Of a stretch of 34,906 nucleotides of DNA, positions 29,582 through 31,564 are shown in pieces. Within the stretch, counting starts at the first letter, position 1, and every line of letters starts with the position of its first letter. The notes beneath the pieces are model-generated. The model did no database searches. It was not told where the DNA came from and saw only the letters and a list, made by a program, of their open reading frames with translations. The position numbers and the translations under genes are program-made. The stretch lies in contig RGPT01000013.1 in the NCBI GenBank assembly GCA_010032545.1, positions 1 to 34,906 of the forward strand, written 5' to 3'. This stretch comes from Alphaproteobacteria bacterium (lineage in GTDB: Bacteria; Pseudomonadota; Alphaproteobacteria; Reyranellales; Reyranellaceae).

Positions 29582-30379
29582 ATGGGCAAGTTGCTGCTGG
29601 TCGGTTGCGGCAAGATGGGCGGCGCGATGCTGGAGGGCTGGCTCGCGCGTGGGCTCGCTGCATCGGACGTGATCGTGGCCGAGCCGGTCGAGGCCATCAG
29701 ACCGAAGAAGCCGGGCCTGCGCGTCGTGGCGTCGTCGGCCGAACTGGGCGAGACGCCGGAGATCGTTGTGCTGGCGGTGAAGCCCCAGTCGATGGATGCG
29801 GTGTTGCCCGACCTCAAGCGCTTCGCCGGGAAGGGCGCGGTCTTTCTGTCGATCGCCGCGGGCAAGACGCTCCGCTATTTTTCCGGCCATCTCGGCGCCG
29901 AAGCCAAGCTCGTGCGCTCCATGCCCAATACGCCAGCCGCGGTACGCCAGGGCATCACCGTCGCCACCGCCGTCTCGGCCGTGTCGGCGGCGGAAAAGAA
30001 GCGCTGCCACGAGCTTCTCGAAGCGGTCGGACAGGTGTTGTGGGTCGACGAGGAGGCGTTGCTGGATCCGGTGACGGCCCTGTCGGGGAGCGGCCCGGCC
30101 TATGTCTTTCTGCTGGTCGAGGCCATGGCGGCTGCTGGCGCCAAGCTCGGACTCGCGCCCGACATGGCGATGCAGCTCGCGCGCGCGACGGTGTCGGGCA
30201 GTGGCGAGTTGCTCCGCCAATCAAGCGAGTCCGCCTCGCAGCTCCGCGTCAATGTCACGAGCCCCGGGGGTACCACGGCGGCGGCGCTCCAGGTTCTGAT
30301 GGCGGCGGACGGTCTCCAGCCGGTGTTCGACAGGGCCCTGGCGGCGGCATCGCAGCGCTCCAAGGAACTCGCGGGATGA
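29582..30379 (+). CDS. proC: Pyrroline-5-carboxylate reductase
   Basis: The 265-residue enzyme makes proline from pyrroline-5-carboxylate with NAD(P)H. It shows LLLVGCGKMGGAMLEGWLARG (the Rossmann loop), VLAVKPQSMD, LVRSMPNTPAAVRQGITVA, VTALSGSGPAYVFLLVEAM (substrate site) and NVTSPGGTTAAALQVL. The length is normal. Its stop overlaps the first ATG of the next gene by 4 nt (ATGATG), so the TetR-like regulator is translationally coupled to it. Confidence 0.96.
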   Translation: MGKLLLVGCGKMGGAMLEGWLARGLAASDVIVAEPVEAIRPKKPGLRVVASSAELGETPEIVVLAVKPQSMDAVLPDLKRFAGKGAVFLSIAAGKTLRYFSGHLGAEAKLVRSMPNTPAAVRQGITVATAVSAVSAAEKKRCHELLEAVGQVLWVDEEALLDPVTALSGSGPAYVFLLVEAMAAAGAKLGLAPDMAMQLARATVSGSGELLRQSSESASQLRVNVTSPGGTTAAALQVLMAADGLQPVFDRALAAASQRSKELAG

Positions 30380-30999
30380 TGCCGGCGCACCAAGCGGCGC
30401 TGGATGCCTTTCTTGGCCTGATCGCCGAAAGGGGCTTCGCCGCCGTGACGCTGCGCGACGTCGCCCAGGCGGCGAACCTCGGGCTAGCCGATCTCTATCG
30501 CCTCTATCCCGACAAGACCGCCCTGGTTGCCGCCTTCGTAGCCCGCGTCGATGCCGAGGTTCTGTCGGGCACGCCGCGCCAGAGCGATCCTGAGGAGACG
30601 GCGCGCGACCGGCTGTTCGACACCATGATGCGTCGCTACGACGCGCTGCGCCCTCATCGTGCGGCGCTGCGGGCGATCGGCGGTGCCTTCCGGCGGGACC
30701 CGCTGCTGATGCTTGGTCTGGGACCGGCGCTGCGCCGGTCGATGGCGGCCATGCTGGAGGCCGCCGGCGTACCGAGCGATGGGTTTTCTGGTGCGTTGCG
30801 ACAGAACGGCCTGCTGGCCCTCCATTATGCCGTCTCCCGGGTCTTCGATCAGGACGAGACGGGAGACCTTTCCAAGACCATGGCCGCCCTGGATAGTCGC
30901 CTCAAAAGCGCCGAAAAATGGTCTCAATTCATTGATAAATATGTGGAAATTCCGAATCCTGGCAAGGCTGCCCCGGAGCCCCGGTCGCCTGCGCCGTGA
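30376..30999 (+). CDS. TetR-family transcriptional regulator
   Basis: This 207-residue protein has an N-terminal helix-turn-helix (AFLGLIAERGFAAVTLRDVAQAANLGLADLYRLYPDKTALVAAFV, residues about 8-54) that matches TetR/COQ9-like DNA-binding domains. A helical ligand or dimer domain follows, with a Pro/Ala-rich end. The ATG at 30376 overlaps the proC stop. The ligand is unknown. It lies directly upstream of the phasin gene, whose promoter region carries a 19-bp dyad just 3 nt after this gene's stop, so it is one candidate for the protein that binds there. Confidence 0.82.
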   Translation: MMPAHQAALDAFLGLIAERGFAAVTLRDVAQAANLGLADLYRLYPDKTALVAAFVARVDAEVLSGTPRQSDPEETARDRLFDTMMRRYDALRPHRAALRAIGGAFRRDPLLMLGLGPALRRSMAAMLEAAGVPSDGFSGALRQNGLLALHYAVSRVFDQDETGDLSKTMAALDSRLKSAEKWSQFIDKYVEIPNPGKAAPEPRSPAP

Positions 31000-31002
31000 A
31001 TG

Positions 31003-31021
31003 TTTTGTGCAATGCACAAAA
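31003..31021. promoter_or_regulatory. Perfect dyad with TGC-N3-GCA core, operator upstream of the phasin promoter
   Basis: TTTTGTGCA (31003-31011), one A, and TGCACAAAA (31013-31021) form a perfect 9-bp dyad with a TGCAATGCA core. A TGC-N3-GCA core is what PhaR-type repressors of PHA genes recognise in alphaproteobacteria. It lies just before the -35 box. A second TGC-N3-GCA (TGCACCGCA, 31068-31076) sits near the transcription start. Confidence 0.7.
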
Positions 31022-31028
31022 TCGTCTC

Positions 31029-31056
31029 TTGACTTGCTGCAGCGCGCGCATAAATT
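31029..31056 (+). promoter_or_regulatory. Sigma70-type promoter of the phasin gene
   Basis: The -35 is TTGACT (31029-31034) and the -10 TAAATT (31051-31056), spacing 16 nt. The expected start is about 31063, giving a leader of ~67 nt. This is the clearest housekeeping promoter in the window, flanked by the operator-like dyad. Confidence 0.75.
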
Positions 31057-31129
31057 AGGGATCGTTGTGCACCGCAGCAAAGCGGGGCTCCCGAGTTTTC
31101 AACGCGTTTCCGCCCTTCAGGAGAATCCC

Positions 31130-31564
31130 ATGTACACCACTGGCGCTTTCAAGAATCCCTTCGCCGACTTCGACTTCAGCAAGATCGCCGGCGACTTCAA
31201 GATGCCGTCCATGAACATGGAATCGGTCGTCGAAGCCGGCCGCAAGAATTTCGCCGCGATGACCGCCGCCAACACCTCGGCCGTCGAGTCGATGAAGGCG
31301 ATCGCGCAGCGCCAGGGCGACATGGTCCGCGCGGCCATGGAAGACTTCTCCAAGCACGGCAGCGAAGTGCTCGCCGCCGCGACCGTCGAGGAGAAGGCCG
31401 CCAAGCAGATCGACTTCGTGAAGAAGAGCTACGAGGCCGCCATGGCCAACACCAAGGAACTGGGCGAGCTCTACAGCAAGGGCCACACCGAGGCGCTCGC
31501 CGCGCTCAGCCAGCGCGTCACCGAGCTGACCGAAGAGGTCAAGGCCGCGATCGCCAAGAAGTAG
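31130..31564 (+). CDS. Phasin (polyhydroxyalkanoate granule-associated protein)
   Basis: The 144-residue amphipathic, mostly helical protein has no Cys or Trp. It shows MYTTGAFKNPFADFDFSKIAGDFKMP, the phasin core VEAGRKNFAAMTAANTSAVESMKAIAQRQ and a long helix ending in TELTEEVKAAIAKK. Phasins coat PHA storage granules and control their number and size. GGAG is 6 nt before the ATG. It has a promoter with operator-like sites upstream and an intrinsic terminator downstream, so it is a monocistronic unit, likely strongly expressed when PHA accumulates. Confidence 0.92.
   Translation: MYTTGAFKNPFADFDFSKIAGDFKMPSMNMESVVEAGRKNFAAMTAANTSAVESMKAIAQRQGDMVRAAMEDFSKHGSEVLAAATVEEKAAKQIDFVKKSYEAAMANTKELGELYSKGHTEALAALSQRVTELTEEVKAAIAKK

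Follow-up and report, generated by a model that had tools for sequence, protein, structure and literature searches.

A predicted multi-box PhaR operator at a Reyranella-type phasin promoter

The short region between a TetR-like gene and a phasin gene in an alphaproteobacterial contig contains TGC-N3-GCA sites on either side of a promoter, and the question is which protein, if any, reads them. The window (the whole stretch of 34,906 nucleotides that was analysed) is contig C25 of a 4.59 Mb assembly. The order of genes around the promoter is enoyl-CoA hydratase, proC, the TetR-like gene, the phasin, a terminator-like site and csaA. The nearest relatives of the phasin are in entries mostly labelled Reyranella, with identity of up to 92% across most of its length.

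A preliminary description of this DNA proposed repression by PhaR, the PHA-granule sensor, and offered the adjacent TetR-like protein as an alternative binder. The analysis presented here supports the PhaR proposal: the outer sites match the PhaR consensus, are conserved in relatives, and are tied to the presence of PhaR and of phasins. It is very probable, judging from sequence, that the region is a multi-box operator for PhaR, which would repress the phasin until PHB granules form. This reading draws on the sites and how well they fit known PhaR sites, on how they are conserved and spaced, on a PhaR being encoded in the genome, and on the sites occurring together with PhaR and phasins rather than with the TetR-like gene.

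Boxes and promoter elements

The features of the region are as follows.

30376–30999, + strand: TetR-fold, COQ9-like gene, judged improbable as the binder of the boxes; its start overlaps proC by ATGA (TetR_N, 8e-09)
31003–31021, no strand: predicted PhaR box 1, a perfect 9+1+9 dyad, TTTTGTGCAATGCACAAAA, with core TGCAATGCA; consensus match on both strands, matrix rank 1
31029–31034, + strand: −35 hexamer TTGACT, invariant in 41 distinct aligned promoters
31038–31046, no strand: predicted PhaR box 2 (middle, weaker), TGCAGCGCG, inside the −35/−10 spacer; score 8.3
31051–31056, + strand: −10 hexamer TAAATT; TAnATT is invariant in 41 distinct promoters
31065–31081, no strand: predicted PhaR box 3, TTGTGCACCGCAGCAAA; consensus match on both strands, matrix rank 2
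31130–31564, + strand: phasin gene, 144 aa (PF09361, 7e-19; TIGR01841, 4e-16)

All of the boxes lie within or beside the core promoter (−35/−10) of a PHA gene, the phasin. Box 1 is placed 7 bp upstream of the −35 hexamer, and the core of box 3 (TGCACCGCA, 31068–31076) lies about the inferred transcription start. Both outer boxes satisfy the B. diazoefficiens consensus TGCRNYGCASMA on both strands; the middle box satisfies the relaxed core YGCRNYGCR and nothing stricter. A perfect 19-bp dyad next to the −35 and a second TGC-N3-GCA site near the expected start had both been described previously, and both are confirmed at 31003–31021 and 31068–31076. The earlier count of two boxes is correct for the outer pair but not for the total, the weaker third at 31038–31046 having been overlooked.

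The boxes were scored using a matrix of 21 positions, built from 24 published PhaR-bound sites of S. meliloti (from Table 3 in the accessible part of PMC12542648, four exoH sites being excluded); the training sites score 14.0–29.8 under this matrix. Among 34,886 window positions, box 1 ranks first with 27.4, box 3 second with 18.7, and the middle box fifth with 8.3, which is below all 24 training sites. The best scores of 20 Markov copies of the window have a mean of 12.8 and a maximum of 19.2. Box 1 is thus above every Markov-copy best, whereas box 3 alone is inside their range, and its position and conservation are therefore needed as further evidence. The 4.59 Mb assembly matches the two-sided consensus TKSTGCRNYGCASMA only four times, twice at this promoter. 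By simpler measures, the bare TGC-N3-GCA motif shows no enrichment (the window has 17 where 18.1 are expected), and there are two perfect 9+1+9 dyads, against 0.40 per Markov copy.

Two further places in the window may be mentioned, both in the TetR-like gene. The second perfect 9+1+9 dyad, GACCGGCGCTGCGCCGGTC, is at 30722–30740, and the third-best matrix score (15.5) is at 30786–30806, within coding sequence and some 220 bp upstream of box 1.

Conservation and geometry of the promoter

Related loci are here called Reyranella-type, a label that rests on database titles and sequence similarity rather than a taxonomy test. The TetR-like gene, the phasin and csaA are in the same order in 55 of 57 relatives. 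The strict core TGCRNYGCA is present at both outer positions in 54 of the 55 other Reyranella-type loci, the second core being relaxed in the remaining one (L056), which answers in the affirmative the question raised by the preliminary description of whether the dyad is conserved in relatives. The more demanding two-sided consensus is found at the first position in 55/55 of these loci and at the second in 41/55. With the window included (56 loci), the outer pair is spaced by 60 bp in 43, by 59 bp in eight and by 58 bp in five. Of the 56, 40 have a relaxed core between the outer pair, always exactly 30 bp before box 3 and at no other inner offset, and the middle box is absent from the other 16.

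Alignment of the 41 distinct promoters with 60 bp spacing gives more detail. The GTGC/GCACAA of box 1 is invariant and its outer arms nearly so. Box 1 and the middle box vary at their central R-N-Y, as PhaR sites do; in box 3 most arm positions are invariant and the centre hardly varies.

A related geometry is common to many alphaproteobacterial phasin promoters. Outside the family, 34 loci have a strict pair 54–62 bp apart, and an inner relaxed core is found in none of them. TTGAC lies between the boxes in 32 of the 34, at 37–42 bp before the downstream box; the equivalent distance is 39 in 55 of the 56 Reyranella-type loci. The two boxes of a pair are not alike: the downstream box has GCA next to its core, on the outer side, in 27/33 distinct pairs, while for the upstream box the figure is 1/33 if the same strand side is taken and 8/33 if its outer arm is read outward. 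Two stricter descriptions were considered and given up. Strict helical phasing of the boxes was not adopted, the outer spacing ranging from 55 to 61 bp across the class, and the idea that the middle box is exclusive to Reyranella-type loci was dropped, the spacer of L182 also containing a core, 27 bp beyond the first box of that locus.

Comparison with published PhaR systems

The published systems are cited here from the parts of the papers that were accessible. In S. meliloti, PhaR (AniA) has sites at phaP1/phaP2, SMa1961 and mmgR, examined by EMSA, and these define the palindrome WNWD2NYGCRNYGCRNH2WNW, with AT-rich arms (PMC12542648). The outer boxes of the window fit this AT-rich-armed palindrome, with the scores of 27.4 and 18.7 given above. 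Window positions 31065–31079, the first 15 bases of box 3, have exactly the sequence of the S. meliloti mmgR core, TTGTGCACCGCAGCA, and the mmgR promoter was shifted efficiently by PhaR (PMC12542648). The consensus TGCRNYGCASMA is derived from footprints in B. diazoefficiens, where PhaR has sites at phaP1 and phaP4 (PMC6201568, PMC10888616). The PhaR proteins of Paracoccus denitrificans and Rhodobacter also recognise TGC repeats, as proposed here (cited in PMC10888616).

The arrangement of the boxes is different. By their listed coordinates, the two boxes at each S. meliloti phasin promoter flank the −35 and are 18 and 28 bp apart (PMC12542648), whereas the outer boxes of the window stand on either side of the entire core promoter, 60 bp apart, and enclose a third box. 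In B. diazoefficiens phaP1, two footprinted sites flank the −35 at −101 and −72, 29 bp apart, and the accessible text describes no box over the start site (PMC6201568, PMC10888616), where the window has a predicted one. In the accessible parts of PMC12542648, PMC6201568, PMC10888616 and PMC3570403 (the last of which concerns Ralstonia PhaR), the alphaproteobacterial phasin boxes flank or overlap the −35, and neither the bracket layout nor the box asymmetry was found in them; subscription journals were mostly outside this search. A literature search of the same limited reach found no paper on a class-wide PhaR regulon or on the synteny of phasin and proC.

Which protein would bind the boxes

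PhaR is encoded elsewhere in the same genome, on contig C247, so that the presence of this protein, on which the earlier proposal depended, is established. It scores 148.8 bits with the TIGR01848 equivalog model, whose cut-off is 109.45, and both of its domains, PF07879 and PF05233, are present.

The two candidate proteins were compared by their presence and absence across the class. A profile search of 289 alphaproteobacterial genomes found the TetR-like protein in 157, mostly as a single copy and including genomes of 1.4 Mb, and PhaR was detected in 182 of 289. The 100 loci compared are a non-random selection from four sources. They comprise the 30 top TetR-like loci from the class search; 20 loci picked because a phasin adjoins the TetR-like gene, of which one (G095) is PhaR-negative; 20 loci from genomes without a PhaR match, two of which had a phasin and were moved to the group with TetR-like gene and phasin; and the 30 best phasin loci, 28 of them in PhaR-positive genomes and two (L209 and L211) in PhaR-negative ones. 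Four loci of the Reyranella family were excluded from the group with TetR-like gene and phasin.

Where a TetR-like gene is followed by a phasin, outside the family, TGCRNYGCA lies between them in 34 of 37 loci (0/37 for the reversed control pattern). Divided by PhaR status, the box is present in 33/33 of the PhaR-positive members of this group and in 1/4 of the PhaR-negative ones (G188). Where the TetR-like gene has no phasin, the core occurs within 400 bp downstream in 2/29 loci (control 0/29), and in 0/9 of those from PhaR-positive genomes; the two exceptions, L168 and L259, have it about 280 bp past the stop, and both are in PhaR-negative genomes. Phasins away from a TetR-like gene have the core upstream in all 30 examined, within 400 bp of the domain in 23 and within 900 bp in the seven with longer open frames. 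In the distant loci L057 and L058 a TTGAC promoter stands between two boxes that are 56 bp apart, and no TetR-like gene was found at either by tblastn. From the distribution across the compared loci, it therefore appears that the sites follow phasins in PhaR genomes.

Phasins of PhaR-negative genomes were collected separately (22 genomes and 28 loci, of which 27 were readable, L274 being excluded). The core is present in 6/27 loci, and by genome in 4/4 of those of at least 4 Mb against 1/17 of the smaller ones. The four large genomes (G095, G188, G195 and G212) have boxes at one or more phasins; their assemblies are fragmented, and relatives in the same families carry PhaR, so the PhaR gene may have been lost in gaps. 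The contrast between PhaR-positive and PhaR-negative genomes is confounded, because the small PhaR-negative genomes may differ in base composition and gene content.

The neighbouring protein has also been analysed. An AlphaFold model (pLDDT 88.2) was compared with known structures using Foldseek. By TM-score it comes closest to 3ni7, an entry titled as a TetR regulator (0.70/0.81), and human COQ9 (6awl; 0.67/0.71), with KstR and other TetR entries at 0.63 or below by query length among the 50 matches listed; ordering by E-value puts ordinary TetR proteins in the five leading places. Conservation is a little higher in the ligand domain (mean entropy 0.72 bits) than in the HTH (0.83 bits), and residue 39, in the would-be recognition helix, is mostly acidic. 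The protein shares the TetR fold of COQ9, but its match to the COQ9 family TIGR02396, although full-length, is weak (22.1 bits against a cut-off of 74.55). It is thus rejected as the true COQ9, and a separate protein of this genome, on C424, exceeds that cut-off. We take the neighbour for a COQ9-like protein of TetR fold, one that may have lost DNA binding. The case for a plausible candidate regulator is thereby weakened, the neighbour appearing to be a widespread COQ9-like protein. The gene is often near proC and before a phasin.

Three explanations other than PhaR acting alone through the boxes have been weighed. That the TGC-N3-GCA sites reflect chance or base composition would agree with the count of the bare motif, which is as expected, and with a dyad of the 9+1+9 type being expected 0.4 times per window. 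However, the family as a whole keeps arms, core and geometry, the class keeps the strict core, and the reversed control pattern occurs in just 0/37, 1/30 and 0/29 loci of the three groups compared; conservation of specific sequence, arms and geometry refutes this explanation, to which we give practically no weight. The second is a local circuit, with the neighbouring TetR-like protein repressing the phasin gene from the dyad. The protein has a TetR_N domain, a short perfect dyad would suit a TetR dimer, and the two genes are associated: of the 30 loci that score best in the class search, the window's own among them, 19 have a phasin after the TetR-like gene, and the TetR-like gene precedes the phasin in 55/55 other Reyranella-type loci, which were found through the phasin. 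But the box does not follow the TetR-like gene. It is missing in 27 of 29 loci that have this gene and no phasin, including 9/9 from PhaR-positive genomes, and in three of the four that have both genes in genomes where PhaR was not found, and it is present at 30/30 examined phasins that lack a TetR-like neighbour, as well as at L057 and L058. The resemblance of the model by TM-score to 3ni7 and human COQ9 and the mostly acidic residue 39 of the HTH also argue against it as the binder of the dyad. The alternative binder of the preliminary description is thus unsupported, the sites tracking phasins and PhaR and not the TetR-like gene, and we consider the local circuit very improbable. Autoregulation of the TetR-like gene was also rejected: the dyad starts 3 bp past the stop of the gene, whose own start overlaps the end of proC, and therefore is not its promoter.

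A compromise would have PhaR acting through the boxes while the TetR-like protein uses a different site of the same promoter. The adjacency of TetR-like gene and phasin is kept in many genomes, and TetR_N is recognisable, which would be consistent with such joint action. Against this, no second conserved dyad stands out by eye in the aligned promoters (columns 31000–31087), and the TetR-like gene is also present in 1.4 Mb genomes (such as G044 and G047) in which neither PhaR nor Phasin_2 was found. We regard joint action as unlikely. Our verdict from the sequences is that this is very probably an ordinary PhaR operator, now better resolved.

Proposed mechanism

PHB sequesters PhaR in S. meliloti and so lifts repression of phasin and depolymerase, and phasins and a PHB depolymerase are the proteins most strongly repressed by PhaR in its proteome (PMC12542648). 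In vitro, PHB abolishes the binding of PhaR to DNA, and phasins release PhaR from PHB (PMC6201568). By analogy with this work in other alphaproteobacteria, binding, repression and release by PHB would proceed at the present locus as follows.

PhaR would bind box 1 beside the −35, the weaker middle box in the spacer and box 3 about the start. The boxes would jointly cover the footprint of RNA polymerase; PhaR in these three positions would block the polymerase and keep the phasin gene off as long as polymer is lacking. The formation of PHB granules would draw PhaR to the granule surface, the boxes would be emptied, and the phasin made would coat the granule. Once the phasin covers the granule, PhaR would be displaced and the gene repressed again. 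Control of phasins by PhaR, published for rhizobia and a few other bacteria, would in this way extend to Reyranella.

Other predicted PhaR sites

The preliminary description also proposed a search of the genome for the same site at other PHA genes. A second phasin and one phaZ have the site; at the phaR promoter it is weak, and it is missing from the third phasin and the second phaZ. The set scored consisted of the 67 places in the genome that match the consensus (27 for the reversed control) together with the phaR and phaZ loci. The top scores are those of box 1 of the phasin (27.4), dusB-ntrB (26.1), phaZ on C3 (22.3) and the phasin on C469 (21.2), followed by two sites in the gap between DUF898 and acyl-CoA mutase genes (20.1 and 17.4) and box 3 (18.7). 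The phaR promoter has a weak site only (15.6), and the matrix scan found no site scoring 9 or more at the second phaZ or the third phasin. Another eleven places in the genome reach 15–17, and one of these is in the window's TetR-like gene. The two-sided consensus is matched 235 times in 41 Reyranella genomes and the control 25 times. Around 20 sites sampled from five relatives, dusB, the acyl-CoA mutase/DUF898 pair, dksA and a periplasmic binding protein recur as neighbours.

The site at dusB-ntrB deserves further comment. It is a near-perfect PhaR-type palindrome, TTATTGTGCACTGCACAAGTT (L092:2185-2205, on C14), upstream of dusB-ntrB, and its 15-bp core ends 24 bp before dusB. The gene dusB is present in 41/41 Reyranella genomes, and the core is found upstream of it in all 30 Reyranella loci fetched and in 4/28 loci of other families (control 0/58). 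In B. diazoefficiens, the accessible text reports nifR as repressed 2.01-fold by PhaR and as having a consensus site (PMC6201568, PMC10888616). The sequences suggest that PhaR controls the nitrogen-regulation genes dusB-ntrB in Reyranella; if true, the predicted box could link carbon storage directly to nitrogen control.

We tentatively propose, while thinking it somewhat more apt to fail than to hold, that there is a shared alphaproteobacterial grammar, in which two PhaR boxes some 55–61 bp apart bracket a rigid TTGAC/−10 promoter, with a downstream box at the start site whose outer arm is GCA-GCA and, in many Reyranella-type loci, a third box in the spacer. Such an arrangement might form a titratable, possibly cooperative granule sensor, and the same protein might gate dusB-ntrB in Reyranella, so that carbon storage would directly set nitrogen signalling.

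Some of the other places may be noted individually. The PhaR-type site scoring 22.3 lies just upstream of one of the two phaZ genes (L303:1437-1457, on C3). Two PhaR-type sites 22 bp apart lie between the divergent DUF898 and acyl-CoA mutase genes (L093:2246-2288, on C413), a gap in which the two-sided site recurs in four of the five sampled relatives. The two-sided consensus is also found upstream of dksA in some Reyranella genomes (L154:1501-1515 and L156:1501-1515).
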